The notes beneath the pieces are model-generated. The model worked only from the letters and a program-made list of their open reading frames with translations. It was not told the origin of the DNA and made no database searches. A stretch of DNA of 44,464 nt from Eubacteriales Family XIII. Incertae Sedis bacterium (lineage in GTDB: Bacteria > Bacillota > Clostridia > Peptostreptococcales > Anaerovoracaceae): contig JAISMX010000026.1 of the NCBI GenBank assembly GCA_031276515.1, forward strand, positions 1-44,464, read 5' to 3'. How positions within the stretch are numbered: position 1 is the first letter of the stretch; the number at the start of each line of letters is the position of its first letter. Positions 19,624 through 40,510 of this stretch are shown here, piece by piece. The position numbers and the translations under genes were made by a program.

Positions 19624-19625
19624 AA

Positions 19626-20528: not shown

Positions 20529-20636
20529 GTTCGTCTCCTCCTCATTCCGGGTGGTTGTTTGATTGGCTTGTCGGACGCCAAGCGCCCGATTGCCGAATTC
20601 GTTGCCCAAACCTTTGCCGCCGCCGATAATACGTTT

Positions 20637-20667: not shown

Positions 20668-20794
20668 GGCGCTTTCGGGAATTAAATTCTTCATCGGATA
20701 CAATTGGATACAATCAATGGCCAATGCTCGCCGGCAACATGAAATCGCCACTGCTTGCTTAGCGCAAGCTTACCGCGTTCGAGAAAAAAAACGC

Positions 20795-20861
20795 TTGACA
20801 ATGCTGTGCGGCGCATGTTAAACTGAACATGTAATCAGGACCACATATATGTTTAATATGT
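20795..20861 (+). promoter_or_regulatory. Operon A promoter and operator-like block
   Basis: TTGACA (20795-20800) with an 18-base spacer to TAAACT (20819-20824). An inverted repeat CATGTT-N6-AACATG (20814-20831) covers the -10 box. A second, ACATAT-N7-ATATGT (20843-20861), includes TATATGTTTA. From the -35 box through the leader, the sequence is nearly the same as at 32365-32475, and the TAATCA...CATATATGTTTA core recurs at 36282-36297. One regulator for all three sites is inferred. Confidence 0.8.
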
Positions 20862-20867
20862 TATTGA

Positions 20868-20917
20868 TCGGAAAACCGAAGGTAACGTTGCGGTGCGCAG
20901 TGTTGCCTTTTTTATTT
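20868..20917 (+). terminator. Operon A leader hairpins with attenuator-like terminator
   Basis: A small hairpin TCGG-AAAA-CCGA is followed by an 11-bp stem (20881-20891 with 20897-20907, including G-U pairs), loop GGTGC, and a run of T residues (20908-20917). This is a complete intrinsic terminator inside the 5' leader, about 85 bases before the first gene. Regulated read-through (attenuation) is inferred. Confidence 0.75.
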
Positions 20918-21001
20918 CAACGGACACAATCGGGCAACCGGAGATTCGCGATATGCATATTAAACTTTGCGATTGTTTGATTTTTGATTAAGGAGAGCTT
21001 T

Positions 21002-23038
21002 ATGCAATTGTCGCAAGTGATTGAGAGTGATGCGCTTCGATTGTTTCTCGGATCGACCGTATTGGGCGTGGACATAGGTTCCCGCACCGGAAAAGCCGCG
21101 CTTTTTAAGGACGGACGTTTTTTTGTGGCGCAAACGCCCACCGGCTTTGACATGCAGAGCACCGCGGACGAGTTGATCGCCGAACTGTTCGACGACGCGA
21201 AAGCGTCTTGGGAGGATATAGACTATGCGGTCGGAACGGGTTACGGAAGGGTGACGCTCCGCTTTGAAAAAGTACCCTATGAACTCGTCACGGAGATTTC
21301 GTGCCATGCGATGGGCGCGCATCTTCTCAACAAAGAAACGCGAACCATCATCGATATCGGAGGACAAGATTCCAAAGCGATTAAAGTGAATACCGAAACC
21401 GGAAAGGTCGAAGGTTTCATTATGAACGACAAATGCGCCGCCGGAACGGGAAGATTTCTGGAGAAAGCGGCGACGCTCCTTGAGCTTACCATCGACCAAT
21501 TGGGAGAAGAATCCGTTCTGTCCGACAATCCGGCGGCCATCGGCACGCAATGCGTCGTCTTTGCGGAATCCGAGATTATTTCTCTGCGCGCAAAAGGTTA
21601 TGCGATCAGGGACATCGCGGCGGGCGTGCATTTGGCGACGGCAAAACGCGTCGTGACCTTGCTCAACAGATTGGGCGTTGAACCCGGCGTGTTTTTTTCG
21701 GGGGGCGTGTCGAACAATATCGGAATGCGCAAAGCGATCGAATACGAATTGAACACGCGGAATCTGCCGATCAAGATCGACGCCATCCACACCGGCGCCT
21801 TGGGCGCCGCCGCCTTGGCCGCGCAGGCTTTTCGGGAAGGGGCGGAAAACAGAAGCGGGGCGGCGGCGCTTGCGGTTTCCGACCGGCGGCATATATCGGA
21901 AGTGATCGAGCGGACCGAAGCGCGGAAACGGGAATTGATACGGCAGGAGGATAAACCGCTGGCCGCGTATATGTGCTCCTATACGCCGCTGGAAATTTTT
22001 TCGGCGGCGGACATTCCGGCGATTCGCCTTTTTACGGCCGGAAACACCGAGGAAGTGGCGAGCGGCGAAGTGATCACGCAAAGCGTCTTCTGCGATTTCG
22101 TAAAGAGCATTCTCGGCAAATTCCAGATGCAAGACCCGCTTTACAAGAGGGTGGACAAGATATTCGGATTTTACACATGCGACTGCATCAAGAAGGTATG
22201 CGAAGCGACCGATGAATTTTTCGCGCCCACGGAACTGTATGTGCTGCCTCGCATGAAAAACAGAACGGATTCTCGGGAGTTTTACAGAGAGGAAATCCTG
22301 AATTTTCGGGACGACGCGGAGAAGTTGAGCGGTCATGCCATATCCGATGAAAACGTTGCGTCGCAGATCAAGCTGTACAACGAAATACGCGAAACATTGG
22401 AGGAAATATCCGCGTTGCGCAAGCGGCCGGATCCGCCGCTGACGGGAGAGGATTTTCTGGATCTCATGACGGCGTATTATTACCTCCCGCCGGACCGCTT
22501 GCTCCGGAGTTACAAAAAAGCGCTCAAGCGCCTGTCGAGCGTTCCCGATACGGGCCGGAGGCCCATCCGCATCATGATGGCGGGCGGAATTGTGGCGGAA
22601 GGCGACAGAAGGCTGATACATTTGATTGAAAAGCACATGGGCGCGCGCGTCGTGACGGAAGACCACTGCACAGGCGTCAAAATCGCAAAAACGCGCATCC
22701 GGGAAGGCGGCGACCCGTATGCGGCGCTTGCCGAAGGCTATATTGACCAATCCCCCTGCGCGCGCATGAAACCGCTGAGCGACCGCATTCGCTATTCGGG
22801 AGATTTGGCTGAGGAGTACGCCGTGGACGGCGTGGTTTACGCCTATCTGAAGTTTTGCCCCTGTTACGGACAAACAAAACATAAGTTTTTCCAATATTAT
22901 CAAACGTTGGGAATACCGGTGCTGGAACTTCCGATCGACTATTCCAAGAGCGACGAAGGGCAGATGAAGACCAGGTTGGAAGCCTTCGTCGAAGTGCTGA
23001 AAGAAGGTCTTGTTTCTCAAAACAAAGCGGCAATATAG
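21002..23038 (+). CDS. Fused activator ATPase and 2-hydroxyacyl-CoA-dehydratase-type reductase subunit
   Basis: A 678-residue fusion. Residues about 18-280 form a BadF/BadG/BcrA/HgdC ATPase domain: the ASKHA phosphate motif VDIGSRTGKAA, IDIGGQDSKAIK, and the two cysteines that hold a subunit-bridging [4Fe-4S] cluster, Cys145 (NDKCAAGTG) and Cys184 (TQCVVFAES). Residues about 315-678 form an HgdB/BcrB/DCCP-type domain rich in possible cluster ligands: Cys325, Cys364, Cys393/395/400, Cys556 and Cys619/621. Activator and catalytic subunits are normally separate proteins. It is the first gene of operon A, with AAGGAG 7 bases before the ATG. No CoA ligase or CoA-transferase is nearby, so a non-CoA substrate, as for double-cubane-cluster proteins, is plausible. 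Confidence 0.88.
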   Translation: MQLSQVIESDALRLFLGSTVLGVDIGSRTGKAALFKDGRFFVAQTPTGFDMQSTADELIAELFDDAKASWEDIDYAVGTGYGRVTLRFEKVPYELVTEISCHAMGAHLLNKETRTIIDIGGQDSKAIKVNTETGKVEGFIMNDKCAAGTGRFLEKAATLLELTIDQLGEESVLSDNPAAIGTQCVVFAESEIISLRAKGYAIRDIAAGVHLATAKRVVTLLNRLGVEPGVFFSGGVSNNIGMRKAIEYELNTRNLPIKIDAIHTGALGAAALAAQAFREGAENRSGAAALAVSDRRHISEVIERTEARKRELIRQEDKPLAAYMCSYTPLEIFSAADIPAIRLFTAGNTEEVASGEVITQSVFCDFVKSILGKFQMQDPLYKRVDKIFGFYTCDCIKKVCEATDEFFAPTELYVLPRMKNRTDSREFYREEILNFRDDAEKLSGHAISDENVASQIKLYNEIRETLEEISALRKRPDPPLTGEDFLDLMTAYYYLPPDRLLRSYKKALKRLSSVPDTGRRPIRIMMAGGIVAEGDRRLIHLIEKHMGARVVTEDHCTGVKIAKTRIREGGDPYAALAEGYIDQSPCARMKPLSDRIRYSGDLAEEYAVDGVVYAYLKFCPCYGQTKHKFFQYYQTLGIPVLELPIDYSKSDEGQMKTRLEAFVEVLKEGLVSQNKAAI

Positions 23039-23055
23039 AAGAAAGAGGGAAAAAG

Positions 23056-23919
23056 ATGGGCTTGTTGAAAGACATCATCGATCCGGAATTGACCGAACGC
23101 ATCGGGAACGACGGATTTATCGGACTGGACATCGGTTCCACGACGGGAAAGGCCGTTCTGATCAGCGGCGGCGAATATTTTACGGAAATCACTCCGACCG
23201 GCGTGTACGCGCAGCCGACGGCGGACAAGCTGATGGAGAAACTGTTTAAAAAATCGGGACGGCGCCTGTCCGACATCAGGGCCGTCACGGGAACGGGCTA
23301 CGGGCGGGTCTCTCTGGATTTTGGAAGGACGCCGAGCAGGATCATCACGGAAATATCGTGTCATGCCATCGGATGCCACTATCTGAACCGGAATACGCAA
23401 ACGATCGTGGATATAGGCGGGCAGGATTCGAAAGCGATCAAAGTCGACGCGCGCAACGGAAAAGTGATCGACTTCGTCATGAATGACAAATGCGCGGCGG
23501 GAACCGGGCGCTTTCTCGAAAAAGCGGCGTATCTTATGGATATTTCCATGCAAGATCTTGGAAAAGAGGCCTTGAAAGCGGAAAAGCCGGCTGATATCAG
23601 CAGCCAATGCGTTGTCTTCGCGGAATCGGAGTTGATTTCTCTCAGGGCAAAAGGAGAAAGCCGCGCGAATATCGCGGCCGGCATCCATATCGCCACGGCG
23701 AGACGCATCAAGAATCAAATCAACCGATTGGGATTGTCGCCGGAATTGGTGTTTTCCGGAGGAGTTTCCAATAACCACGGTATGCGTGCCGCGATTGAAG
23801 ACGTGTTGGGAATCAAAACGACGGCGCTCAGGCTCGACGCTATTTTTGCCGGCGCGTTGGGAGCGGCCATTCTCGCGCAGGGAAACGAAGCCGCCTTGGC
23901 GAACGCAAGCGCCGGTTGA
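23056..23919 (+). CDS. BadF/BadG/BcrA/HgdC-type activator ATPase
   Basis: A 287-residue stand-alone activator. Family proteins form dimers around one [4Fe-4S] cluster and use ATP to push an electron at very low potential into a dehydratase or reductase partner. Motifs: GLDIGSTTGKAV, VTGTGYGR, VDIGGQDSKAIKV, Cys146 (NDKCAAGTGRF), Cys185 (SQCVVFAES), SGGVSNN and a GALGAA end. It is clearly homologous to the N-terminal half of the preceding fusion protein, so the two activator domains may form a heterodimer, as BcrA and BcrD do in benzoyl-CoA reductase. It starts 17 bases after the fusion gene. Confidence 0.92.
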   Translation: MGLLKDIIDPELTERIGNDGFIGLDIGSTTGKAVLISGGEYFTEITPTGVYAQPTADKLMEKLFKKSGRRLSDIRAVTGTGYGRVSLDFGRTPSRIITEISCHAIGCHYLNRNTQTIVDIGGQDSKAIKVDARNGKVIDFVMNDKCAAGTGRFLEKAAYLMDISMQDLGKEALKAEKPADISSQCVVFAESELISLRAKGESRANIAAGIHIATARRIKNQINRLGLSPELVFSGGVSNNHGMRAAIEDVLGIKTTALRLDAIFAGALGAAILAQGNEAALANASAG

Positions 23920-24004
23920 CGCGGACGCCGCAGCCGGCGTTCGCGAATTCGGGATAAAACGCAAAAACGAAATTTCGCATACGAAAACGAAACGGTGACT
24001 GAAT

Positions 24005-25249
24005 ATGGCAGAAACAAAAGAAAAAAAGTACATCCCTCCCGTCGATTTCGGAAGGCAGACGCAGATCGAGCACATAGAATACAGCAGAGACGTGGTGCAT
24101 CGCTATTCCCCGTCGATCCGCAGACTTTTCAATCTGGGATTGACATATGTCGAAGATGTGGAAAAACAGGTGCGCGACGAGGGGAAGCGGGCGCTGTGGT
24201 GCGGGCCGCCCTGGGCGATGCCTCTGGTGTACGCCGCGGATTATCTGCCCTTGGAATACGGAGAGCTCGCGCGGCTCAGCGACGTCGACGCCATTTCCAT
24301 TGCCGAAAATCATTTCCAAATGCCCGCCGAAGTGTGCTCCATGGTAAAGGCGACCGTCGGAGAGCTGTACAAGCGCAGGAACAGCGGAATCGACAAAATC
24401 TTCAGCATGGGGAACACCTGCGAGCCCTTCAATCAGGCGTGGGAAGTCCTGAAGGACGAAGGATACGATATCTATAACGGCGAAATCGTGTTCCGCGCGC
24501 CCGGAGTCGACGGAGAGCGATATGAAAAAATCCTTCGATTCTTTTTGAAAGAAATCGAATCCTTTTATTGTTGGATGACCGGGGCGCGAGACGTGAACAA
24601 GGAAAAACTTTTTATCGAATTGCAGCGCAGAAACCGCATCATGACAAAGATCAAGACCATTATGGAGCTTCGCGTGCCGCATCCGTTCTATGTGCGCAGT
24701 CTCGCCGTGATGTATCTGTTGAACGGCTTGAACAATTATCTGGGAAAGCCGGACGAATTTGAAGATGTGCTGGACGGACTCATCGATGAACTGCTGGCGC
24801 GCGGAGATTCCTCCGAAGACCGGGATCGCGTGATTCCTTTGGTTTGGTCCGGGGGAAGCGGTCAGGAATTCGGCGTATACGAAGCCGTGGACGAGGCAAA
24901 CGGCGCGCTGTTGGGTTTTGTGGCCATCGCGCCGTACGACAAATTGTTCAATTTGGAGATCGACCCCGTGGAGTCGCTCGCGCGCTGGCAGCTGGACAGC
25001 AGAGGCGCCGGAGCTTCCGTTTACATGCGGCGCGCGCTCGAAGAAAAAATCGACGAAATCGGCGCAAAGGGATTGATTCAGTATGGCTTCATCGGTTGCT
25101 CGCAGCATGGCGTGGCGCGTGAAATGTTCCGCGACTATTTTCATCAAAAAGGCATCCCGAGCATCAACATCGAAGGAACGTTTCAGGTCGGGCCTCCGTC
25201 GGGACAGGTTCTGACGCGGATCAATGCGTTTATTGAAATGCTCGCGTGA
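24005..25249 (+). CDS. 2-hydroxyacyl-CoA dehydratase / reductase family subunit (HgdB/BcrB-like)
   Basis: A 414-residue protein of the HGD-D family. Cys66 (RALWCGPPWAMPLVYAADYLP) sits in the typical first motif. Cys111, Cys139 (SMGNTCEPFNQAW) and Cys365 (GFIGCSQHG) are further candidate ligands of a [4Fe-4S] or double-cubane cluster. Family members receive electrons from HgdC-type activators to dehydrate 2-hydroxyacyl-CoA, dearomatise benzoyl-CoA, or reduce small molecules. It lies directly after the two activator genes and before an ABC importer, so it probably pairs with the C-terminal domain of the fusion protein to form the catalytic heterodimer. The substrate is unknown. Confidence 0.85.
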   Translation: MAETKEKKYIPPVDFGRQTQIEHIEYSRDVVHRYSPSIRRLFNLGLTYVEDVEKQVRDEGKRALWCGPPWAMPLVYAADYLPLEYGELARLSDVDAISIAENHFQMPAEVCSMVKATVGELYKRRNSGIDKIFSMGNTCEPFNQAWEVLKDEGYDIYNGEIVFRAPGVDGERYEKILRFFLKEIESFYCWMTGARDVNKEKLFIELQRRNRIMTKIKTIMELRVPHPFYVRSLAVMYLLNGLNNYLGKPDEFEDVLDGLIDELLARGDSSEDRDRVIPLVWSGGSGQEFGVYEAVDEANGALLGFVAIAPYDKLFNLEIDPVESLARWQLDSRGAGASVYMRRALEEKIDEIGAKGLIQYGFIGCSQHGVAREMFRDYFHQKGIPSINIEGTFQVGPPSGQVLTRINAFIEMLA

Positions 25250-25267: not shown

Positions 25268-26050
25268 ATGTCTCAAGGTGACAAAAAAGAGAACCTTGTC
25301 GGGAGATTTTTCGAAATCTCGATTATCCTCATCGTTATAATCATCGCTTGGCTCTTCATTCCTCTGAAGGCGCAGAACATGTTCGTGCCTTCGTTGTTTA
25401 CGATCCTCGGCGCCTTCAAAGAACTAACTCTCAACGGTGAGCTGTGGATCGATATCGTCACCAGCCTGAAGCTGTCGTTTCTGGGGCTTTTGATTTCCAC
25501 CGTTGCGGGGATTGCGCTGGGTTTGCTGCTCGGTTGGTTTGTCAAGCTCGAACGCTATCTGGACACGGTATTGCAAATCATGCGGAACACGCCGGTCCTG
25601 TCGGTTCTGCCGATTTTTGTAATCGCCTTGGGAATCGGCGACATGTCCAAAATCGCAATCATTGTGTGGGCTACGTTTTTCCCGATACTTCTCAACACGA
25701 TTCAAGGCGTCAAAAACGTGGATTCAACGCTTATTCGCGCCGCGGAATCCATGGGCATCGCCAGAGTCGGATTGTTCCTTAAAGTTGTTTTGCCCGCTTC
25801 GTCGCCGTTTATCATCGCGGGTTTTCGCCTCAGCGCGGGGGTATCGCTTCTGGTCATCGTCGCGGCGGAGATGCTGGGAGCGAATCACGGGCTGGGCTTT
25901 ATGATCTTCAATTACCAGCATTCCTATCAAATCCCGAAAATGTACGTCGGCATCATTACCTTGGCGGTCATCGGCGTATTGCTGAACCTGCTGATCGTGA
26001 AGTTGGAAGCCAAATTGACGCGATGGCAGGAAAAAGCAAATGCGAATTGA
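25268..26050 (+). CDS. ABC transporter permease, SsuC/TauC/NrtB type
   Basis: A 260-residue inner-membrane permease with about six transmembrane segments and the EAA-like cytoplasmic loop AAESMGIARVGLFLKVVLPASSPFI near residue 160-185. This type imports sulfonates, nitrate, taurine or thiamine precursors together with a periplasmic or lipid-anchored binding protein. A GGGGAGGG ribosome site lies 6-9 bases upstream. Operon A has a single permease gene, so a homodimer is expected, paired with the binding protein at 26109 and the ATPase at 27933. Confidence 0.92.
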   Translation: MSQGDKKENLVGRFFEISIILIVIIIAWLFIPLKAQNMFVPSLFTILGAFKELTLNGELWIDIVTSLKLSFLGLLISTVAGIALGLLLGWFVKLERYLDTVLQIMRNTPVLSVLPIFVIALGIGDMSKIAIIVWATFFPILLNTIQGVKNVDSTLIRAAESMGIARVGLFLKVVLPASSPFIIAGFRLSAGVSLLVIVAAEMLGANHGLGFMIFNYQHSYQIPKMYVGIITLAVIGVLLNLLIVKLEAKLTRWQEKANAN

Positions 26051-26108
26051 TATAGCTGCAAGTGGTAAAAATGGAATATGTTTGTTTAGCGAGAAAAGGA
26101 GAACGGTT

Positions 26109-27209
26109 ATGAAAACGGGAACGGCAAGAGCAAAAATGAGTATTGTCTTAGTATTGTTGGCGTTGGCGGTCGCGGCGATTTCGCTCACCGCGTGCGGCGG
26201 CGGAAGCGCCGGAGGCGGTGAGAGTGCCGGAGGGAACGCGGAATCCGCCGAAACCGCCACGGAAGAATCGGGAGCCGCGGAAAGCGCGGGAGACGCGGAA
26301 GTGTTTACGCTCAAGGTTCCGGGATTGAGCGAGGGGCCGGTGCGTTTGAATCCTTTGACGATCGGCCATGAAAAAGGATTCTTTCAAGAATACGGCATTG
26401 AATTGGAGGACCAAGGCAGCGTCGCAATCAATCAGCAGATTTCCGCCATCCTGTCCGGCAGCATCCATACGACGGCCATCATGACGGCGGAAGGTGTGCC
26501 GGCCATCGACAACGGCGCGCCGATCATTGCCGTCGCGGGAGGAGTCGTGACGACGCCGGATTGGCCGCACATGACATTTTTAGTTAAAAAAGGGAGCGAC
26601 ATCAAGACCGGCCGGGACTTCATAGGGAAAAAGATTGCGACGGCGGCCGCGAACGGCGGCTGCACCGGCGGATTCCCGCTGGAATTCATGCGGCAAGCAG
26701 GTGTGGAAAACGCCATCGAACAAGTCGAATTGATTACGGTGCCGGAAGAAGCTTTGATCGAAACCCTGAATCAGGGCAATACGGATATCATCGGCACACA
26801 TCTGGCGCCAAGCGTGGTGAAAAAGCTGTACGGCGACGAGTTCGACATCGTTTTCAGCGATTGGGATCTTGCCGAGGACAAGCTTGGCGACATGCAGTTC
26901 TATTTCACGAGAGAGTTCACGGAGGAAAATCCCGATGTCACGCGTCGCTTTGTCTCGGCATTGGCAAAGACCTTCAACTGGATCAACGAAAATCCCGACG
27001 AGGCGTACGAAACATACAAAAACGCCGTACCCAACATCAATGAAGATATTTTCAGCGTGAACCAATATTCAAAGGATGCGCTGATCGACAAAGCGCACGT
27101 GGATATATGGCTGGAGCTTCTGGGCAATCCGGGACAGGTGCAGCTGCTTAAAAACAAATTGACATTCGACGATGTGGCGACGAACGAGTTCAATCCGAAC
27201 GCTTCCTGA
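26109..27209 (+). CDS. ABC transporter substrate-binding lipoprotein, SsuA/NMT1 type
   Basis: A 366-residue exported lipoprotein. The signal peptide ends in the lipobox LTAC with lipid-anchored Cys29, followed by a Gly/Ser/Glu-rich spacer to about residue 60 and a bilobed binding domain of the SsuA/TauA/NMT1 class. Typical segments are GHEKGFFQEYGIELE and SAILSGSIHTTAIM. Its ligand would be the compound delivered to the operon A reductases. A run AAAAGGAG lies upstream of the chosen ATG. Sequence alone does not tell a sulfonate from another small anion. Confidence 0.9.
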   Translation: MKTGTARAKMSIVLVLLALAVAAISLTACGGGSAGGGESAGGNAESAETATEESGAAESAGDAEVFTLKVPGLSEGPVRLNPLTIGHEKGFFQEYGIELEDQGSVAINQQISAILSGSIHTTAIMTAEGVPAIDNGAPIIAVAGGVVTTPDWPHMTFLVKKGSDIKTGRDFIGKKIATAAANGGCTGGFPLEFMRQAGVENAIEQVELITVPEEALIETLNQGNTDIIGTHLAPSVVKKLYGDEFDIVFSDWDLAEDKLGDMQFYFTREFTEENPDVTRRFVSALAKTFNWINENPDEAYETYKNAVPNINEDIFSVNQYSKDALIDKAHVDIWLELLGNPGQVQLLKNKLTFDDVATNEFNPNAS

Positions 27210-27232: not shown

Positions 27233-27931
27233 ATGGAAATAATTTCAAAAGAATTGAAGGCATTGCTGTATGAGGAAGGTGCGGATTTGGTGGGCTTTGC
27301 CGACTTGAGCGAAACGGGCAGCGCACTTCCGTTTGGGGTGTCGATTGCCATAGGGCTCTCCATTGAAGCGCTCGATTCCCTGCGCGAGGGCGATAAAACA
27401 AGATACAAAGCGGAAGTGTTTCCGCTTGAAGACATCGAACGAATCGTCGACGTCGGGGCCAATTATCTGAACCGAAAGGGTTATAAAACCGTTCAACTGA
27501 CGGAAGCGTTTATGCACAGCGAGGCATTCGACATGGATATTCAGTTAAAGACGATTGCGACAAGGGGCGGTCTCGGCTGGGTGGGCAGGTGCTCATTGCT
27601 TGTTACCGAAAAATTCGGACTCGCGCAGCGCCTCTCCGCTCTCATCACCGACGCGCCGCTCCTTGCCGACCGTCCGGTCACGCAATCGTTTTGCGGGGAT
27701 TGCAACTTGTGCGTTCGCAACTGTCCCGGAAAAGCGATGTCCGGAAGGCTGTGGAACCCCCAAAAACCGCATTGCGATCTGTACTTTGATTTGAAGTCCT
27801 GCTTGCGGGGCGCGGATATCTGCGGCGAACGAATCCCGAGGCAGAAAGGGCTGAAGCTGTGCGGGCAGTGTCTCGGTTTTTGTCCGCACACAGAGGATTA
27901 TATCAACCGCGTAAAACGGCGAGGAGCTTGA
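27233..27931 (+). CDS. QueG-like double [4Fe-4S] protein
   Basis: A 232-residue protein related to the Fe-S part of epoxyqueuosine reductase and reductive dehalogenases. RGGLGWVGRCSLLV near residue 110-123 matches the QueG GWIGK-type motif. The C-terminal region holds two cluster motifs: CGDCNLCVRNCPGKA near 160-174, and later CGQCLGFCP with additional cysteines. It is much shorter than QueG (roughly 380 residues) and is embedded in operon A. It may be an electron carrier to the reductases, or a dedicated (possibly corrinoid-dependent) reductase. No corrinoid-binding motif could be confirmed. A GGGGAGG site precedes the ATG. Confidence 0.75.
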   Translation: MEIISKELKALLYEEGADLVGFADLSETGSALPFGVSIAIGLSIEALDSLREGDKTRYKAEVFPLEDIERIVDVGANYLNRKGYKTVQLTEAFMHSEAFDMDIQLKTIATRGGLGWVGRCSLLVTEKFGLAQRLSALITDAPLLADRPVTQSFCGDCNLCVRNCPGKAMSGRLWNPQKPHCDLYFDLKSCLRGADICGERIPRQKGLKLCGQCLGFCPHTEDYINRVKRRGA

Positions 27932-27932: not shown

Positions 27933-28793
27933 ATGGAAAATGAATACAGAATCGTGGCGGAGAATTTAAACCTCGTCTATCGAATCAGGAGAGCGAAAAA
28001 AGATCCGAATCCGAGGAGCCTTCACGCGCTCAAAGACATCAGCCTAAATGTGCGCTCGGGCGAATTTCTCACCGTTGTGGGGCCTTCGGGATGCGGGAAA
28101 TCCACATTTCTCTATATCCTTGCCGGGCTGATCAAGAAAACGTCGGGAAATGTCCGAATCAACGGACAGGAGATCAAAGGGCCGGCGCTGGACAGAGGCA
28201 TCGTCATGCAGGCGTACGCCTTGTTTCCGTGGCGCACGGTTCTGAAAAATGTCGAATTCGGCTTGGAAGTAAAAAAATTGCCGAAACGGGAACGAAAGTC
28301 GATCGCCCGCGAGTTCATCGAACTCGTGGGCCTGAGCGACTTTGCGGATCGCTATCCCTATGAGCTGTCCGGCGGCATGAAGCAAAGGATCGCCATCGCC
28401 CGCGCTCTGGCTTACAACCCCGACGTTCTTTTGATGGACGAGCCTTTTGCGGCCGTGGATGAACAGACGAGAGGGAGTCTTCAAGCGGAAACGCTGCGAA
28501 TATGGGAAAAAACGAACAAGACGATCATCTTCGTGACGCACAGCATCGAGGAAGCCGTCTATCTCTCCGATCGAATCGTCGTCATGACATCCGGACCGGG
28601 AAAGATTCGCGGCATTGTGGATGTCGCCCTGCCCCGTCCTCGAGACGAAGCCATCAAGAACACGAAGGAATTTGCTTCGTACCGAAACAAGGTGTGGACC
28701 TTATTGCAGACGCCCTGCGAAAGAACGGAGAAGGTGGAGCGCATATTCGATTATACGGAGTTGGTCAGCAGACCGCAGGACAATGCGATCTGA
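27933..28793 (+). CDS. ABC transporter ATPase, SsuB/TauB type
   Basis: A 286-residue nucleotide-binding subunit with Walker A GPSGCGKST near residue 51-59, Q-loop VMQAYALFPWRTV, signature LSGGMKQR and Walker B VLLMDEPFAAVD. An H-loop VTHSIEEAVYLSDR follows. It energises the permease at 25268. Its start is one base after the stop of the QueG-like gene, showing tight coupling. A terminator-like hairpin follows before the molybdoenzyme gene. Confidence 0.93.
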   Translation: MENEYRIVAENLNLVYRIRRAKKDPNPRSLHALKDISLNVRSGEFLTVVGPSGCGKSTFLYILAGLIKKTSGNVRINGQEIKGPALDRGIVMQAYALFPWRTVLKNVEFGLEVKKLPKRERKSIAREFIELVGLSDFADRYPYELSGGMKQRIAIARALAYNPDVLLMDEPFAAVDEQTRGSLQAETLRIWEKTNKTIIFVTHSIEEAVYLSDRIVVMTSGPGKIRGIVDVALPRPRDEAIKNTKEFASYRNKVWTLLQTPCERTEKVERIFDYTELVSRPQDNAI

Positions 28794-28857: not shown

Positions 28858-28899
28858 TCATAAGCGGCAATGCGAACGAGGGACAGGAGGACGCACACA

Positions 28900-31830
28900 A
28901 TGGCTCAGTACGGAATGTTGATCGATCTGGAGCGCTGCACGGGATGTTATTCCTGTGTGGTTTCCTGCAAACAGTACTTTGGAACGCTTCCCGGCGTGGA
29001 TTACAATCAAGGGCATTTTGTCGAATGGGGGGAGTACCCGGACGCGCACCGACGCTATATCTCGACAATGTGCAATCATTGCGAAAACCCGCCGTGCATG
29101 ACGAGCTGCGCATTTGGCGCCACATACAAAGCGCGGGAAGGCCCGGTTCTGACCCATCCGGAAAAATGCACGGGTTGCGGCGAATGCGTCAAGGCCTGCC
29201 CGTACGGACAGCGCTTTCTAACACGGGAGGTCGAAACGGCTTTCCCGGGCCATCCCATGCCGGCGGAGGTCGAAAGCGCCGTGCGCCTGCGCAAGGCGGA
29301 AAAATGCACGCTCTGTCAAGACCGCATCGCGGAAGGGCTGGAACCGATCTGCGTGGCGCTTTGCCCCGGCCGATGCCGCATCTTCGGGGATCTCTTGGAT
29401 GCGGAAAGCGAGATCAACTACTACATAAAGCTTTACGGGGCGATCAAAATCGAAGGCACATCCTTGTATTACGTTTTGCCGGATGGCATGGACCCCGCGC
29501 TGTTGCCGCCCGGCTACGATTCCGACACGGGAGCGCTGACGCCGACGACCAAAAAAAACGCTTTGGCGCGCAGAAAACCGGGCGATCCGGATTTCAGAAC
29601 GCTCACGGACGGCTTGTTCAAATCCCGCGATTGGGTGCGGAAGAACGACGACAGGAAACCGAACATCGGCGGAGAATACAAATACACATATTGCGCGCAA
29701 TGCAACCATATGCCAAAATGCGGCGTGAAAGCCGTGGTGAAAGACGGGAAGGTCTTGCGCATTGAGAGGCGCGAAGAATACGGACCCGAGTTGCTCTGCA
29801 CGATCGGAAACGCTACGGTGCAAGATTTGTACGCGCCCGATCGCGTTTTGTATCCGCTTCGCCGCACGAATCCCAAGGGAGAAAGGAGCGTGTGGAAGCG
29901 CATTTCTTGGGAAGACGCGATTTCCGAGATTGCGGAAAAATTAAACGGCGTGAAGGAGAAATACGGCGCCGAAAAGGTTTTCTTCATGTCCGGAGACGCG
30001 AAAGAGCCCCGGTCCGTCGTGCAGCGTCTCGCCTACAGTTTCGGTTCCCCGCATCTCGGCTCCGAGAGTTCGACTTGCTATACGGCGGCGGAGCTCGCCG
30101 TGCGGCTCATCTACGGAATGGAAGGGAGGGCCATAGCATCGCTGAACAGCGGCGCCTCGCCCGACATCAACGACACGAAAGCGGCGATCATCTGGGGCAA
30201 CAATCCCGGCGTTTCCATGGCGGGGATGTACAACGGCTTGAAAACGACGCGCGAATTCGGAAATGTCAAATTTATCGTGGTCGATCCGCGCGTCACGAAC
30301 ACAACGGAAAATTTTGCCGACGTTCATCTGCAGATCCGGCCGGGGACGGATGGCGCCCTCGCGCTTTTTTTCGGGAATTATTTAATTGAACACGATGCTT
30401 ACGACAAAAAATTCGTCGAAGAATGGACGCATGGATTTGAGGAATACAGGGCGCTCGCCGCGCGGTATACCCTTGCGAGGACGGCCGAAATTTGCGGAAT
30501 TCCGGCGGAACGCTTGCGACGCGCGGGCGATATCCTCGTGGAAGCCGGCGCGCCGATCACAATTCGATCTTCTTGCGCTTTCCCGCAGCATTTTAACGGG
30601 ACGGACAATATGCGGGCAATGATGCTGCTCGTTCCGCTGACCGGCAGTCTGGACGTCGAAGGCGGGCATCCGATCGTAAACGAACCGTTGGAATTCGACA
30701 TGTGGGGCGGTTCTTATCCCTTCGCGCGCGTGGACGACTTGCTGCCAAAACTCAGCCATTTGAGGCTCGACCGCAAGGATTTTCCGCTTTGGTCCGACTT
30801 TGACATTCAGGGCATGATGCAGGTCAATCTGCTGCCCGAATACGTGCGGGACGGGGGGCTGCGCGCCGCGCTGCTCGTCGGCGTGAACACAATGATGTGG
30901 GCGCAGACGCACGAATATCAACAAGCGTTTCGCGACATGGAGTTTGTCGCCGCCGTGGATTTCCGGGAAAATCCATGGACGCACGACTATGTCGACATGT
31001 TGCTTCCGGCCGCCATGTCTTTTGAGCGGGCGGCGCCGCTCAGCGTAGTCGGCGGTCGTCGCGTATACCTGCGCGAGCCGATTGTGGAACCCGCGGGCGA
31101 AGCCAGAAGCGATTATCGGATCATCTGCGACATAGGCGCGGCGCTTGGTCTCGGCGACGCGTTTTTCGGAGGCGGCGAAAAAGCCGAAGAGAGCTGCATC
31201 CGAGAAATACTTCGCACGACGGGAGGCGCGCGGGAAATCACACTTGAAGAATTGCGCGCGGCATCGCCGGACGGGATTACGATCCCCTTGCGAAAAGGAG
31301 TGAAATACCGGAAATGGGAGCTGGGTCTTTTGCGTTCCGACGGCAAACCCGGATTTTCGACGCCCTCCGGCAAGGTTGAGTTTGTGTCGGAGATCCTTCG
31401 CCGGTACGGCTACGAACCCTTGCCTCTTTACCGAGAACCCGCGCACAGCCCCGTTTCCACACCGGAGCTTGCGGAGAAGTATCCATTGATCCTGTGCGCG
31501 GGCGCGCGCGTTCCGTATTACTGTCAATCCGGCGGCCGCAGTCTGCCGTGGCTTCGCAGATTCATGCCCGAGCCGACGGTAAATCTCAGCAGATCGGATG
31601 CGGAAGCGCGCGGGCTGAAAGAAGGAGAACTCGTGCGCATCACTTCGCCGGCAAACGAAAACGGCATCGTCGCAAAGCTCGTGATCACAAATACATTGCG
31701 TCCCGGCATGATCGACATGTATCACGGATGGCCGCAGGCGGACGTCAACGAACTCGTCCCGCGCATCTTTGACCCGCTCGGAGGGTTTCCTCCTTTCCGA
31801 GAGGGGCTTTGCCGGATAGAAAGGGCCTGA
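28900..31830 (+). CDS. Molybdopterin oxidoreductase with fused N-terminal four-cluster ferredoxin
   Basis: A 976-residue fusion of two normally separate subunits of the DMSO-reductase superfamily. Residues about 1-200 are a DmsB/PsrB-type electron-transfer domain with four cysteine sets (C13-16-19-23, C58-61-66-70, C90-93-96-100, C136-139-151-155). The catalytic part starts near residue 260 with its own [4Fe-4S] motif (C265, C268, C274, C300). The likely Mo/W ligand is Cys393 in SSTCYTAAELA, as in the Cys-ligand polysulfide/thiosulfate/arsenate branch. No twin-arginine signal is seen, so it is probably cytoplasmic. AGGAGG lies 7-8 bases before the ATG. It could oxidise or reduce a sulfur oxyanion, an S-oxide or another product of the operon; the substrate is unknown. 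Confidence 0.9.
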   Translation: MAQYGMLIDLERCTGCYSCVVSCKQYFGTLPGVDYNQGHFVEWGEYPDAHRRYISTMCNHCENPPCMTSCAFGATYKAREGPVLTHPEKCTGCGECVKACPYGQRFLTREVETAFPGHPMPAEVESAVRLRKAEKCTLCQDRIAEGLEPICVALCPGRCRIFGDLLDAESEINYYIKLYGAIKIEGTSLYYVLPDGMDPALLPPGYDSDTGALTPTTKKNALARRKPGDPDFRTLTDGLFKSRDWVRKNDDRKPNIGGEYKYTYCAQCNHMPKCGVKAVVKDGKVLRIERREEYGPELLCTIGNATVQDLYAPDRVLYPLRRTNPKGERSVWKRISWEDAISEIAEKLNGVKEKYGAEKVFFMSGDAKEPRSVVQRLAYSFGSPHLGSESSTCYTAAELAVRLIYGMEGRAIASLNSGASPDINDTKAAIIWGNNPGVSMAGMYNGLKTTREFGNVKFIVVDPRVTNTTENFADVHLQIRPGTDGALALFFGNYLIEHDAYDKKFVEEWTHGFEEYRALAARYTLARTAEICGIPAERLRRAGDILVEAGAPITIRSSCAFPQHFNGTDNMRAMMLLVPLTGSLDVEGGHPIVNEPLEFDMWGGSYPFARVDDLLPKLSHLRLDRKDFPLWSDFDIQGMMQVNLLPEYVRDGGLRAALLVGVNTMMWAQTHEYQQAFRDMEFVAAVDFRENPWTHDYVDMLLPAAMSFERAAPLSVVGGRRVYLREPIVEPAGEARSDYRIICDIGAALGLGDAFFGGGEKAEESCIREILRTTGGAREITLEELRAASPDGITIPLRKGVKYRKWELGLLRSDGKPGFSTPSGKVEFVSEILRRYGYEPLPLYREPAHSPVSTPELAEKYPLILCAGARVPYYCQSGGRSLPWLRRFMPEPTVNLSRSDAEARGLKEGELVRITSPANENGIVAKLVITNTLRPGMIDMYHGWPQADVNELVPRIFDPLGGFPPFREGLCRIERA

Positions 31831-31846
31831 AAGGAGGTTCATGAGG

Positions 31847-32368
31847 ATGATTTTCTCTGTCGAAAGTGTTTTTGAAAGCGTTTCTCTGTTCGCGCTTGTG
31901 CTGATTACATTTGTCATACATGGCAGATTCGGAAAAAAACCGGTTCTGACGCCCGGGATACGCGTGCTTTCGGGAATCGGCGTTGCGATCGCGATTGCCT
32001 TCATCGTTTTGATTGCCGCGAAACTCGGAAGTGACGCGAACGCGTTCATCGCGTCGGCGGCATATGCGCTGCGGATCGCTTTCGCCGCGGCGCTCGCCTA
32101 TCCCTTCGTGCTGTTCCTGATTCGCCCAACGCTGGAGGCGACGGGTTCGCATGACTATATCGACCTGATCCTGATCGTGCTTGCGATTCCGGTGTTTGCG
32201 CTGAGTTTGTTCCTCTTGTTTACGCCATCGGCGAAGGGATTGTCTTTTTTTTACGCGCAGGTGTTTTTCACCGTGCTCGCGGCGCTAAACTGTCTGTTGA
32301 TCGCGCGCATTTTCGGAGACGGACTGAAGCGGAAACGCGGTCGTGAGAAATCAAAAAAAACCGCTTGA
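31847..32368 (+). CDS. Five-helix membrane protein, possible anchor of the molybdoenzyme
   Basis: A 173-residue hydrophobic protein with about five predicted membrane helices and a strongly basic C-terminus. I do not recognise a family. Its position directly after a DMSO-reductase-type fusion suggests a DmsC/NrfD-like role as quinone-linked membrane anchor, though it is shorter than those proteins and has no clear haem or quinone motif. The ATG at 31847 suits the AAGGAGG site (9 bases); an ATG at 31841 would be too close. The operon B -35 box overlaps its stop codon. Confidence 0.6.
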   Translation: MIFSVESVFESVSLFALVLITFVIHGRFGKKPVLTPGIRVLSGIGVAIAIAFIVLIAAKLGSDANAFIASAAYALRIAFAAALAYPFVLFLIRPTLEATGSHDYIDLILIVLAIPVFALSLFLLFTPSAKGLSFFYAQVFFTVLAALNCLLIARIFGDGLKRKRGREKSKKTA

Positions 32369-32432
32369 CAATGATGAGATCCCTGTGTTAAACTGAATTT
32401 GTAATCATGATTGCATATATGTTTAGTATGTT
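32365..32432 (+). promoter_or_regulatory. Operon B promoter and operator-like block
   Basis: TTGACA (32365-32370), an 18-base spacer and TAAACT (32389-32394), then TAATCA...CATATATGTTTA and TATGTTATTGA. Almost the whole stretch is shared with the operon A promoter at 20795-20870. The -35 box overlaps the stop codon of the preceding membrane-protein gene. Confidence 0.8.
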
Positions 32433-32441
32433 ATTGATCGG

Positions 32442-32486
32442 AAAACCGAAGGTAGCATTGCGGTGCGCAGTGTTGTTTTCGGTTTT
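32442..32486 (+). terminator. Operon B leader hairpin (20-bp stem)
   Basis: AAAACCGAA plus GGTAGCATTGC (32442-32461) pairs without interruption (G-U pairs allowed) with 32467-32486, loop GGTGC, ending in TTTT. The 5' arm overlaps the small TCGG-AAAA-CCGA hairpin (32438-32449), so the two folds exclude each other. This is an attenuator-like arrangement. Confidence 0.7.
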
Positions 32487-32531
32487 CCAAAATGGTGGCG
32501 GTACGCGCGCGCCGGCATGGGGGCAATGGAA

Positions 32532-32780
32532 ATGGTAAAAAACGGTGGAGCGACAGCGTCCGTGGGTACAACCGGCATTTGCGACGAAAGACCCGAAGCA
32601 GCCGATGCGCGGCATTCCGCCGACACCGGCCGCGCGAGAACGGTTGCGGGGAACCTGCGAGAACAGGATTTGAAACGGATCATAAGCTATATCAACGACA
32701 TACGATACGGCTCCGTGACCGTGATCATTCAGGACGGGCATGTGCTTCAGATTGAGAAAAACGAAAAAATCCGGCTTTGA
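32532..32780 (+). CDS. DUF2292 (YezD-like) small protein
   Basis: An 82-residue protein whose last 40 residues (IISYINDIRYGSVTVIIQDG, then HVLQIEKNEKIRL) match the DUF2292/YezD family. These are small proteins of unknown function that I recall being encoded near sulfate/sulfonate uptake and cysteine genes. The start is uncertain: ATG at 32532 has GGGGG 8 bases upstream; ATGs at 32526 and 32517 are alternatives. The N-terminal half is low complexity. It is the first gene after the operon B leader, which supports a link of the whole regulon to sulfur supply. Confidence 0.75.
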   Translation: MVKNGGATASVGTTGICDERPEAADARHSADTGRARTVAGNLREQDLKRIISYINDIRYGSVTVIIQDGHVLQIEKNEKIRL

Positions 32781-32843: not shown

Positions 32844-33308
32844 ATGGCAAGTGTGGGGGACGTGAGACCGGACTCGAAAACGGGCCGAAACATCCTCGGC
32901 GTTCCGATTCTCGTGATCGGCGTCGCAATCGCGGTCGTGCCGCGATTGGTCTATCAGGCATTCGAAAGCATGGACGGCATGGTCATGCAATGTTATGCGA
33001 CCGCGAACGCGGAAATCGCGGTCGGCGCGGCGATCGTAATCTTCGGGGGGCTGTATTTTTTCGCGAAATCCGCGACGCTCAGGCTGACCGCATCCCTTTT
33101 GGCCCTCCTGTCGGCGGTGTTTGCGCTGCTCTTTCCGACCGCGCTTACGGGCTTATGCGGAGACGCGCACATGGCCTGCCACACGCTGACGCTGCCCATG
33201 CTGATCGCGAGCTCTTCCCTGATCATCCTGTTTTCGCTGATCGGCGCCGCGCTGTCCGTCCGCACGCTGCTGCGCGCGACGAGGGAACGCCGCGCGTCGG
33301 GACTTTGA
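32844..33308 (+). CDS. DUF4418 family membrane protein
   Basis: A 154-residue protein with four predicted membrane helices. A conserved-looking extracytoplasmic loop holds cysteines and histidine (GLCGDAHMACHTLTLPM near residues 106-122), matching my recollection of DUF4418. GGGAGTGG lies upstream of the ATG at 32844. It precedes an FtsX/LolD-type ABC pair and probably forms part of that transporter or a sensor for it. The CxxxxMxCH-like loop could bind a metal or haem; this is speculation. Confidence 0.75.
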   Translation: MASVGDVRPDSKTGRNILGVPILVIGVAIAVVPRLVYQAFESMDGMVMQCYATANAEIAVGAAIVIFGGLYFFAKSATLRLTASLLALLSAVFALLFPTALTGLCGDAHMACHTLTLPMLIASSSLIILFSLIGAALSVRTLLRATRERRASGL

Positions 33309-33339
33309 CGTCGGCCTCGCCGGACGCGGAGGAATGCAC

Positions 33340-34530
33340 ATGTCGAGTTTTTCCATCGCGCGAAACAATCTGCTGCACAGGCCTTTTCGATTGTGCTGCC
33401 TCGCCGCGCTCATCGCCGTGACCGCCTTCGTGATCGCCGGCGGCACGCTGTTCGGATTGGGTCTGCGAAACGGCGTCGCGAGCACGGCGGCGCGTCTCGG
33501 GGCGGACGCCATGTTCTTGCCCGTGGGCGCCGAACGGAATCTGGAGGGCGCGCTGCTCGAAGGAAAGCCGAGCACCTTCTACCTGCCGGGCGACGCGGTG
33601 CGCGCGCTTTCCGAGCTGAAGGGCGTCAAGCGGACTTCGCCGCAGCTCTACATCTCCACATTCGATTCGGCGCACTGCGGCGCCCTCGTGCAGATCATCG
33701 GCTATGATCCGGAAACGGATTTCGTGGTTACGCCTTGGCTGAAGGAGAACGGTTCGAGCGAGCCGGGCCGCGGCGAGATCGTGATCGGAAGCGACATAAA
33801 CTTGGCGCTGGGAGAGAAAATGCTGCTTTTCGGCGCGAGTTGCGTCGTGGTCGGCAAGTTGGAAAGGACGGGCATGGGCTTCGACGCGACGGTTTTCGTG
33901 GGCAAGGAAACGGCCCGCATGCTGATCGACGAATACGAGACGTACATCGGCGCGATTCCGATGCCGGATGAGAACGCGGCTTCGGTCGTCACCGCGGAGA
34001 TCGAGGATGGTCTCGATCACGAGACGTTTGTAAAAGAAGTCCGAAAAGAGCTTGACGGCGTGAACGTGATTCTGCCGCAGGCCATCATCGGAAATCTGGC
34101 GCGAAACCTCGATCTGACCATAGGCGTTCTGATGGGCATTCCGGCATTGCTTTGGGTTCTCTCGGCCTTCGTCCTCGTGATCGTGAGCACGATCACCCTG
34201 CACGAGCGCAAGCGCGAATTCGGTGTGCTGCGCGCGCTCGGGGCGACGCGGAAAAAGCTTCTCGAAATCCTGCTGGCCGAATCCGTCCTGCTCGGCGTCC
34301 TGGGCGCCGGCGCGGGGGTCCTGCTGTTCTGCGTGACGGCGCTGCCCTTCAACGCGCTCCTCGAGAGCAAGCTCGCTTCGGAATACCTGCTCCCCTCCGC
34401 CGACGTCACCGTGCCGGTGCTGATCGCCTGCTTCCTCCTGTGCGCGGCGGGCGGGCCGATCGCCGCCTTCGCGTCGGCCGCGGGCATCGGACGCGCGGAA
34501 ACCTCGCTTATAATGCGGGAGGATGTGTGA
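33340..34530 (+). CDS. FtsX-like (MacB/LolC-type) ABC transporter permease
   Basis: A 396-residue permease of the MacB/FtsX type: one N-terminal helix (about residues 21-43), a large extracytoplasmic domain (about 45-250), and three C-terminal helices. The HERKREFGVLRALGATRKKLLEILLAES coupling segment is typical of FtsX family proteins. Such transporters do mechanotransmission, export or envelope remodelling rather than classic import. The ATG at 33340 has GGAGG 7 bases upstream; the ATG two codons earlier is too close. The ATPase gene overlaps its stop codon (TGATG). Confidence 0.88.
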   Translation: MSSFSIARNNLLHRPFRLCCLAALIAVTAFVIAGGTLFGLGLRNGVASTAARLGADAMFLPVGAERNLEGALLEGKPSTFYLPGDAVRALSELKGVKRTSPQLYISTFDSAHCGALVQIIGYDPETDFVVTPWLKENGSSEPGRGEIVIGSDINLALGEKMLLFGASCVVVGKLERTGMGFDATVFVGKETARMLIDEYETYIGAIPMPDENAASVVTAEIEDGLDHETFVKEVRKELDGVNVILPQAIIGNLARNLDLTIGVLMGIPALLWVLSAFVLVIVSTITLHERKREFGVLRALGATRKKLLEILLAESVLLGVLGAGAGVLLFCVTALPFNALLESKLASEYLLPSADVTVPVLIACFLLCAAGGPIAAFASAAGIGRAETSLIMREDV

Positions 34531-35207
34531 TGCTGCTTTCGGTTTCGGATCTCAAGAGAACGTACAGGCGCGGAGAGAGGATGTTCTCCGCGGTGGAGGA
34601 TGTCGCGTTTGCGATGGACGGGAAGGATTTCATCTGCATCACGGGCGAATCCGGCAGCGGCAAGAGCACGCTGCTGCATCTGCTCACGGGGCTTCTCAAG
34701 CCGGACGCCGGGCGCGTGCTGTTCGAGGGGCGGGACATCGCGGCGCTGTCCGACGGCGAGCGCTCCCGTCTGCGAAACGGCCGCATCGCCTGTGTTCCGC
34801 AGGGCTACAGTCTGCTGAACAATTTCTCCGTCCTCGACAATGTGCGTCTGCCCCGCTGTCTGTACGGCGAGAAGCGCGGCGCGCGCGCGGAAACGCTGAA
34901 GAAAGCGGAGCGCCTGCTCGCGCGCATGGGCATCGCCCCGCTCGCCGCCGAGCGGCCGCAAAATCTCTCCGGCGGCGAACAGCGCCGCGTCGCGATCGCC
35001 CGCAGCCTGATCGCCGATCCGGCCCTGCTCGTCGCGGACGAGCCGACCGGAGATCTCGACCCCAAGACGGCGACCTCGATCTTGGAATTTTTTGCCGAGA
35101 TTCATGGGGAAGGGACGGCGATCGTTATGGTTACGCACGAGAGGGAACGCATCCCCTTCGCCAACAGGCATTTTGTCATGGACGGGGGCAGACTGTGGGA
35201 GGAGTAG
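34530..35207 (+). CDS. LolD/MacB-type ABC transporter ATPase
   Basis: A 225-residue ATPase with Walker A GESGSGKST, signature NLSGGEQRR, Walker B LLVADEPTGDLD and the H-loop VTHERER. Its size and the DEPTGDLD motif put it in the LolD/MacB/FtsE group that works with FtsX-like permeases. It overlaps the permease gene by one base and lies just before the NifH-like gene, so the same transcript links this transporter to the nitrogenase-like system. Confidence 0.92.
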   Translation: MLLSVSDLKRTYRRGERMFSAVEDVAFAMDGKDFICITGESGSGKSTLLHLLTGLLKPDAGRVLFEGRDIAALSDGERSRLRNGRIACVPQGYSLLNNFSVLDNVRLPRCLYGEKRGARAETLKKAERLLARMGIAPLAAERPQNLSGGEQRRVAIARSLIADPALLVADEPTGDLDPKTATSILEFFAEIHGEGTAIVMVTHERERIPFANRHFVMDGGRLWEE

Positions 35208-35290
35208 AGAGTATGGCGCCGGCGCATACCGACTATGAATCCCATATTTCGAAAAACGGTTGATCCGGGATCCACAATACGGGAGGAAAT

Positions 35291-36241: not shown

Positions 36242-36302
36242 TTGACAAAGTGAAGTCCATCGTTTATTATAGTAAACATACTAATCATATATGTTTACTA
36301 TA
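36242..36302 (+). promoter_or_regulatory. Operon C promoter and palindromic operator
   Basis: Near-consensus promoter: TTGACA (36242-36247), 17-base spacer, TATTAT (36265-36270). A perfect 13-bp inverted repeat, TATAGTAAACATA (36268-36280) and TATGTTTACTATA (36290-36302), overlaps the -10 box and start region, as expected for a repressor site. Its right arm contains the TATATGTTTA block also present upstream of operons A and B. Confidence 0.88.
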
Positions 36303-36311
36303 AGCTGTTGA

Positions 36312-36357
36312 CCGGAAGACCGGAGATAGGCGTAAACGCGCTTGTTGCCGGTCTTTT
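36312..36357 (+). terminator. Operon C leader hairpins, attenuator-like
   Basis: Hairpin 1, CCGG-AAGA-CCGG (36312-36323), corresponds to TCGG-AAAA-CCGA upstream of operons A and B, with a compensating U-A to C-G change. Hairpin 2 pairs AAGACCGG (36316-36323) with CCGGTCTT (36348-36355) around an inner GCG-TAAA-CGC stem and ends in a T-rich stretch. The two share bases and cannot form together. Terminator/antiterminator control is inferred. Confidence 0.7.
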
Positions 36358-36434
36358 GTTACACATAAGATTGAAATTTCGGAGTGTCAAAGTTTTCGAA
36401 GAAGGCAAGATATGTGAATGGAAGGAGGATTTTA

Positions 36435-37382: not shown

Positions 37383-37431
37383 GATGGCGCCAAAATCAAA
37401 ATACAAGAACAGTATTGGAGGAATGTCGAAG

Positions 37432-40372: not shown

Positions 40373-40510
40373 GGCAAAACATTTTTGTCCGCGACGATGC
40401 GCGGCGCGCAAAGAGATGCGCCATATACTTTTTATCCGAACCCCGATGTCGGCGCGCCCACACCGGTCCTTCATTAAGATTTGCCGAATCGAGAAAGGAG
40501 AAATTTCATC

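Follow-up and report, generated by a model that had tools for sequence, protein, structure and literature searches.

Class I benzoyl-coenzyme A (CoA) reductases (BCR) are ATP-driven enzymes for the breaking of aromatic rings. Those of the BzdNO/BzdPQ type divide their work between two subunits: BzdN holds an [8Fe-9S] double-cubane cluster, which its authors regard as an electron store, and BzdO holds a [4Fe-4S] cluster on three cysteines with water as the open ligand, which they regard as the active site (Protein Data Bank [PDB] entry 8s02; PMC11971306). The nitrogenase-like IsrBHDK, together with SsuCAB, assimilates isethionate in Rhodobacter capsulatus (PMC11423573), and the nitrogenase relative methylthio-alkane reductase (MAR) cleaves carbon–sulfur (C–S) bonds (PMC12552129). 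Here we describe a three-gene set (21002..25249, plus strand) from a 44,464-nucleotide stretch of DNA, hereafter the window (GenBank assembly GCA_031276515.1, contig JAISMX010000026.1, positions 1 to 44,464), of an Eubacteriales Family XIII. Incertae Sedis bacterium (Anaerovoracaceae), a gut-type anaerobe. The set—a fusion protein (Fus), a second activator (Act), and an HgdB-like subunit—is a new variant within the superfamily of class I BCR, 2-hydroxyacyl-CoA dehydratases (HAD), and double-cubane cluster proteins (DCCP), and lies outside all of its named families. The explanation that fits best, and toward which we lean, is an ATP-driven, CoA-independent reductase with the class I BCR layout that cleaves imported organosulfur compounds, likeliest sulfonates to sulfite, for cysteine synthesis.

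What does the set consist of? Its anatomy is certain. Fus (21002..23038; 678 residues, ATG at 21002 with AAGGAG upstream) joins an activator ATPase to a double-cubane-type HGD-D subunit: Pfam and NCBIfam profiles match BcrAD_BadFG (1e-52) and then HGD-D (2e-79) in a single frame, the PDB matches are 4eht and 7yyl/6eno, and the activator domain carries the pair Cys145/Cys184. On the same strand follow a second activator ATPase of the HgdC/BcrD type (Act, 23056..23919; Cys146, Cys185; 239 bits to TIGR00241, over the cut-off) and the 414-residue HgdB-like subunit (24005..25249; HGD-D, E 6e-33), the proposed active-site subunit. Ten further genomes or records encode full-length homologues that have the two domains in this order and are ∼48–58% identical; Fus is therefore a real fusion, and a frameshift or chance joining was rejected. 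An earlier note on this DNA, made from the letters alone, had described the fusion, the separate activator, and the separate HgdB-like subunit with these same activator cysteines, and had likened the whole to the four parts of BCR; as judged from reading frames and domain matches, that description is confirmed, as there are two HgdC-type activators, one of them fused, and two HGD-D subunits, the composition of class I BCR.

The cysteine patterns extend this likeness. Six cysteines in the HGD domain of Fus (Cys325, 364, 393, 556, 586, and 619) are invariant in 9 homologues and align with six positions of DCCP and BzdN, and three in the HgdB-like subunit (Cys111, Cys139, and Cys365), invariant in 25 homologues, fall in a profile alignment on the columns of the three invariant cysteines of the HadB/BzdO/MbdO type. 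The set thus pairs BzdN-type six with BzdO-type three cysteines, as class I BCR does (MbdN itself, in PDB 9g87, has only three of the cysteines in its aligned part); the profile alignment does not fix whether Glu87 of the HgdB-like subunit is the counterpart of Glu65 of BzdO. By analogy, the fused domain likely has the pattern for an [8Fe-9S] cluster and the HgdB-like subunit that for a [4Fe-4S]-OH2 cluster, and the BzdNO division of labor is the simplest reading for the pair. With only three of the six double-cubane cysteines present in the HgdB-like subunit, the two would form a BzdNO-like heterodimer rather than a DCCP-type homodimer. An AlphaFold model of the HgdB-like subunit (pLDDT 86, pTM 0.88) is matched in Foldseek at E ≤ 0.001 only by DCCP, HAD, and class I BCR structures. 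Fold and activators, the latter with their two cluster cysteines, are those of the BCR-I/HAD/DCCP superfamily.

Does the set belong to any named family? We placed it in a tree of 37 rows with DCCP, YjiM, BzdN, BzdO, MbdN, MbdO, HadB, HadC, and the remaining HGD proteins of the genome. Each of the two focal subunit types, the fused HGD domain and the HgdB-like subunit, gives a single clade (100/100), outside all known functional groups, and neither belongs to the clades of BzdN/BzdO or MbdN/MbdO; the order of the deeper branches is unsure, because some reference rows are long-branched and several cover no more than the stretches shown in PDB alignments. The NCBIfam class I BCR equivalogs are missed by far: BcrC (72.8 bits against a cut-off of 421), BzdN (85.1 against 454), BcrA (145 against 578), BcrD (112.6 against 313), and BzdQ (188.9 against 380). 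The same is true of HadC (68.7 against 700 bits) and of the double-cubane cluster protein model NF040772, whose cut-off of 350 bits is reached neither by Fus (230.4) nor by the HgdB-like subunit (61.2). Scores, cysteines, and tree led us to reject membership in DCCP and, likewise, in the CoA-ester dehydratases. The earlier note had asked for such a phylogeny, and neither CoA-ester dehydratases, DCCP, nor YjiM attract the set. Its double-cubane likeness holds for the six cysteines of the fused subunit; it does not carry over to the set as a DCCP, given the three-cysteine second subunit and the scores.

Individual comparisons sharpen the picture. Class I BCR has in common with the set the two activators, the six-cysteine and three-cysteine HGD-D subunits, and the fold; the focal set differs in having an activator fused to its double-cubane subunit, tandem HgdB copies, and, in place of a CoA ligase, an importer and sulfur genes. 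The fused domain, with its six cluster cysteines, comes nearest to DCCP/DCCP-R (6eno, 7yyl) and YjiM in profile and PDB sequence searches, but DCCP pairs two identical subunits, each holding its own double cubane, and has its activator as a separate protein. HadBC (3o3m) shares the fold, the activator type, and a three-cysteine active-site subunit; it differs in that the fused subunit here has six cysteines and both focal subunits stand in clades of their own. The genome also holds separate true HAD pairs, one of them at 437 bits to HadB. The nearest functional analogue is IsrBHDK with SsuCAB, which likewise couples an ATP-driven low-potential reductase to an SsuABC importer in sulfur assimilation (PMC11423573), although Isr is nitrogenase-like and the focal enzyme is of the HGD type. 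That the fold family is capable of sulfur chemistry is known from the 4-thiouridine desulfidase TudS, a single BCR-I/HAD domain (PMC11971306). TudS has one domain only, unlike the focal set. We know of no HgdC-type activator linked to it.

On what might such an enzyme act? Short intergenic gaps (17, 85, 18, −11, 23, 1, 76, and 10 bp from Fus to the last gene) make it probable that Fus, Act, the HgdB-like gene, and six further genes on the plus strand form one operon ending at 32368. As the earlier note had observed, an SsuABC-type importer is attached (25268–28793), which Pfam and NCBIfam profiles resolve into an SsuC-type permease (25268..26050), an SsuA/NMT1-type lipoprotein substrate-binding protein (26040..27209; lipobox LTAC), and an SsuB-type ATPase (27933..28793). 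An organometal transporter, SaoABC, was rejected: it gives the best NCBIfam hits, but at 145, 37, and 252 bits against cut-offs of 295, 300, and 360. The operon contains no CoA ligase or transferase.

The functional context stretches past the focal genes, to at least 44096. Ten kilobases 3′ of them lies a MAR-like nitrogenase relative, accompanied by an SsuABC of its own and a cysteine synthase, all on the plus strand: the NifH-type reductase of the nitrogenase-like enzyme (35291..36169; TIGR01287, 408.6 bits, over the cut-off), the cysteine synthase CysK (36384..37382; TIGR01139, 436 bits, over the cut-off), a MarK-like NflK (37375..38784; 222 bits to PDB 9d9u_C/9fmg against 115 for the next match, with the three P-cluster cysteines present), a second importer, SsuCCAB, identified from profiles (38781..42504; two SsuC, SsuA, and SsuB), and a MarD-like NflD (42564..44096; 198 bits to 9fmg_A/9d9u_A against 101). 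The described MarBHDK (9fmg, 9d9u) is the best PDB match and shares with NflDK the P-cluster cysteines, the MarD cofactor-ligand columns Cys270 and His429, and a NifB in the genome; the window operon differs in containing CysK and SsuABC, and at the columns of Arg428, a proposed MAR hallmark, and of the pair His194/Trp195 (residues as in PMC12552129) NflD has Ser/Gly and other residues. Because Isr has lost the D-subunit cofactor Cys and His, along with two P-cluster cysteines (PMC11423573), and NflDK retains all of these columns, we consider NflDK MAR-like and reject its identity as Isr. Nitrogen fixation was also rejected: the genes are MarDK-like, and the genome (assembly 77% complete) encodes no other nitrogenase component-1 (PF00148) protein. 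Elsewhere the genome encodes a NifB-type radical S-adenosylmethionine protein (243 bits, under the full-length NifB cut-off) and, on contig 44, a sulfite-reductase homologue.

Are these genes regulated together? In the 1.9-Mb assembly BLAST locates one promoter-leader element at four sites and no others: upstream of Fus, of the NifH operon, of NifB, and of CysK. Copy 1 (20784..20920, plus strand) precedes the reductase operon, with TTGACA, an 18-nucleotide spacing, and TAAACT at 20795–20824, the block CATATATGTTTAATATGTTATTGATCGGAAAACCGAAGGT, and a terminator-like hairpin in the leader (20878–20910 in promoter and hairpin scans; fold z = −3.35). Copy 2 (32354..32490, plus strand) precedes the NifH operon and is ∼82–85% identical to copy 1 over the 137-nucleotide repeat; a third lies directly upstream of NifB on contig 81 (77% identity), and the fourth, directly before cysK (36286..36328, plus strand), comprises the core only (79% over 41 nucleotides). 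All four have the TTGACA box, a −10 box, and a CATATAT(G/A)TTTA block just 3′ of the −10 box; the sequence singled out in connection with the element shared by the Fus, NifH, NifB, and CysK operons is CATATATGTTTA. No Rfam family covers the region before the operon or the element, and a known riboswitch was rejected on that ground. The four sites are independent evidence that the HGD-type reductase is coregulated with a nitrogenase-like enzyme, a cofactor maturase, and a cysteine synthase. Among the genes of G147, a genome from the same phylum, no common promoter element was found.

How widely is this linkage conserved? One scan of genome contigs gave 13 loci with relatives of the HgdB-like subunit. 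Scans for the fusion in 348, 148, 395, 296, and 4 genomes gave sparse hits only, so the linkage count is small. Seven genomes have the HGD set and MarDK-like genes on one contig: that of the window, G494, G495, G496, G498, G499, and G147. The deltaproteobacterial genomes G496 and G499 have the run SsuB-SsuC-SsuC-Fus-HgdB(two to four copies)-Act-SsuA(two to five)-NflK-NflD-CysK; in G498 the activator lies among the HgdB copies, and five SsuA, NflK, NflD, and CysK come next; and G494 and G495 (Syntrophomonadaceae) have SsuC-Act-Fus-HgdB-NflK-NflD. In G147 SsuA-Fus-HgdB-SsuC-SsuB leads into a siroheme sulfite reductase (NIR_SIR), with CysK, MetK, MetY, MetA, NifB, NifX, NifH, SsuCBA, NflD, and NflK within ∼28 kb. 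By a rough estimate, a nitrogenase-like gene would fall within 15 kb by chance with a probability of 0.01 to 0.07 per genome, and seven genomes have one, although the lineages are not independent. In G497, G500, and G504 the contig ends, leaving their linkage undecided. NflD and NflK of the window share only ∼34–42% identity with the corresponding proteins of the linked loci. Tandem copies reach four to five HgdB-like subunits and five SsuA in one operon (L013, L014, L021, and L049), and a segment hypervariable among the HgdB copies (67–73) forms the loop that follows the first strand, beside the cluster site; these copies and their variable loop suggest several substrates.

Since the genes sit in a sulfur-scavenging cluster with a nitrogenase-like enzyme, a role in organosulfur assimilation is likely. 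The sequence itself shows the subunit composition, the cysteine patterns, the fold, the conserved linkage to NflDK/CysK, and the common promoter element; the types of cluster, the electron path, the class of substrate, C–S cleavage, and independence of CoA are inferences. How might the system work? SsuABC, by a family resemblance that falls under the sulfonate cut-offs, would bring in an organosulfur compound, likeliest a sulfonate. As in other members of the family, the two activators, one free and one fused, would accept electrons one at a time from a donor of the ferredoxin type and spend ATP on raising them. By analogy with BzdN, the electrons would gather on the double cubane ([8Fe-9S]) that the C-terminal domain of Fus would hold and, by analogy with BzdO, move on to the HgdB-like subunit and its [4Fe-4S] cluster with an open site; there the substrate would be bound without CoA and its C–S bond cut reductively. 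The liberated sulfite would go to sulfide on a siroheme sulfite reductase, for which G147 has a gene in line with the set and the window's genome a homologue on contig 44; CysK would then make cysteine from the sulfide. The coencoded and coregulated NflHDK would do the same job on other organosulfur substrates, thioethers or other sulfonates. Two things favor sulfonates over thioethers for the focal enzyme: the presence of a sulfite reductase and the precedent of Isr. CoA-free cleavage of the C–S bond of sulfonates is the best single reading, if a tentative one that we put a little short of an even chance. To much the same tentative degree we entertain its fuller form: a first CoA-independent member of the BCR type that cleaves sulfonates, convergent with and in one regulon with a nitrogenase-type reductase, its tandem active-site subunits being a kit for substrate range. 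The open-access literature yielded no report of an HGD-type enzyme in sulfonate use. The earlier note had proposed a reductase for a small non-CoA substrate; the clades and the missing ligase agree with this, and the sulfur context points to organosulfur rather than to a generic reductase.

Several observations weigh against organosulfur cleavage. The SsuA proteins score 60.6 and 79 bits, under the cut-off of the sulfonate-binding model TIGR01728 (163.5), and NMT1-type proteins bind many ligands. The element before cysK is short (E 0.005), and the sulfite reductase is in the operon in G147 only. The sets of a Lachnospiraceae genome (L018) and of Spirochaetia (L019/L020) do not stand beside cysteine genes; the former genome has no nitrogenase-like gene, and in the latter such genes lie elsewhere. 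On an Azoarcus sp. KH32C plasmid (L022 11997–16188) activator, fusion, and HgdB stand alone, with no visible sulfur context. The AlphaFold model of Fus was poor (pLDDT 61) and was not used. To our knowledge, no activity is known for any member of the Fus/HgdB group. A divergent CoA-type operon (17757–20609, minus strand; cyclase, 3-hydroxyacyl-CoA dehydrogenase, and BKACE-type enzyme) ends 0.4 kb upstream and also counts against this explanation, and an AMP-binding ligase is in line with the set, downstream of SsuB, in one distant Spirochaetia relative. The earlier note's statement that a CoA-activating enzyme is missing therefore stands for the operon, less cleanly for these surroundings.

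The last two observations suit a CoA-ester reductase or dehydratase, in which an imported aromatic or hydroxy acid, activated by a ligase encoded elsewhere, would be reduced or dehydrated as in class I BCR or HAD. The subunit layout is indeed that of class I BCR, and acyl-CoA genes lie near the Azoarcus set. We nevertheless judge this unlikely: both subunits stand in clades outside the CoA-ester enzymes and miss every BCR and HAD equivalog cut-off by far; the sets of the window, G147, and the Deltaproteobacteria and Syntrophomonadaceae loci contain no ligase or transferase; sulfur genes are present, with a promoter common to CysK and NifB; and ordinary HAD pairs are available in the genome for such work. 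Might the set instead serve the nitrogenase-like enzyme, supplying NflDK with super-reduced electrons or handling its clusters? It shares an operon with NflDK in several genomes, in stretches without a NifH gene, and its promoter is common to NifH and NifB. Against this, which makes such a partnership quite unlikely, NflDK has its own NifH in the window and in G147, the Lachnospiraceae genome has the HGD set without any nitrogenase-like gene, and tandem HgdB copies that vary beside the cluster site suit substrate range rather than electron supply.

Reduction of acetylene, azide, hydrazine, or another such small inorganic or unsaturated molecule by a DCCP-like enzyme would agree with the closest profile, double_cubane, and with the operon's molybdenum protein, whose best structural match is acetylene hydratase. 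It is highly improbable, as the HgdB-like subunit is short of three double-cubane cysteines, the importers and sulfur genes would be left unexplained, and relatives' sets have no such molybdenum protein. The breadth of ligands in the SsuA family would also admit a sulfur-free imported substrate, the genes being merely under sulfur- or redox-starvation control; with CysK consistently adjacent and a sulfite reductase in line in G147, we give this very little credence.

Three further genes of the reductase operon have less evident roles. Between ssuA and ssuB, a small two-cluster iron–sulfur protein (27233..27931; 232 residues) resembles by profile QueG and reductive dehalogenases in their C-terminal parts; it is a possible electron donor and is absent from the other loci examined. 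Downstream of SsuB, a cytoplasmic protein identified from profiles as a fusion of Fer4 and molybdopterin oxidoreductase (Mop, 28870..31830) has acetylene hydratase and then formate dehydrogenase H as its nearest PDB matches. A paralogue of Mop, 68% identical, lies directly 5′ of nifB (L030 3222–6221), and neither copy has a Tat signal. The likely final gene, after the 10-bp gap, encodes a predicted 175-residue membrane protein without a family match (31841..32368). The NifH operon is headed by a small DUF2292 protein (32517..32780), a possible sulfur-linked regulator with a homologue 5′ of cysK in G147 (L035 ∼4920–5100, minus strand); the open-access literature yielded nothing on the function of DUF2292/YezD. 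Between the shared promoter and nifH lie a DUF4418 protein, an FtsX-type permease, and a LolD-type ATPase, an ATP-binding cassette exporter (32844..35263, plus strand, as are all these genes).

Other surroundings vary. Contig 81 (L029 14529–18913 and L030) groups a corrinoid-activating protein, UroD-type methyltransferases, a corrinoid protein, SsuABC, the Mop paralogue, NifB, and an OAH/OAS sulfhydrylase whose gene is broken into two frames; a set of BKACE enzyme, dehydrogenase, and thiolase recurs on this contig. The Spirochaetia sets are flanked by a C45/AAT-type N-terminal-nucleophile hydrolase and the AMP-binding ligase (L019 7186–7920; L020 4789–6312), which might free or activate the substrate there. 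The Azoarcus set adjoins an AraC regulator and a YfhL-type ferredoxin. In G309 (L036 16545 to L037 3346) Fus and HgdB stand with two more HGD proteins, one of them DCCP-like, and a protein resembling phosphoenolpyruvate mutase and isocitrate lyase, with a nitrogenase-like HDK set of another type ∼20 kb off; this set perhaps serves another substrate.

What would such a system mean? How anaerobes acquire sulfur from sulfonates without oxygen is an open question beyond Isr, Isl, and Xsc (PMC11423573). The adjacent MAR-like enzyme, the context of CysK, NifB, and sulfite reductase, and the common promoter element, none of which the earlier note had seen, point the focal enzyme toward organosulfur assimilation. 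The locus supplies the genes, a regulon, and a hypothesis for the substrate, which makes its function directly testable. It brings two classes of ATP-driven super-reductase, HgdC-type and NifH-type, into one pathway, a combination of which we found no description in searchable papers. If the proposed function is true, the set would be a natural CoA-free relative of the benzoyl-CoA reductase type.

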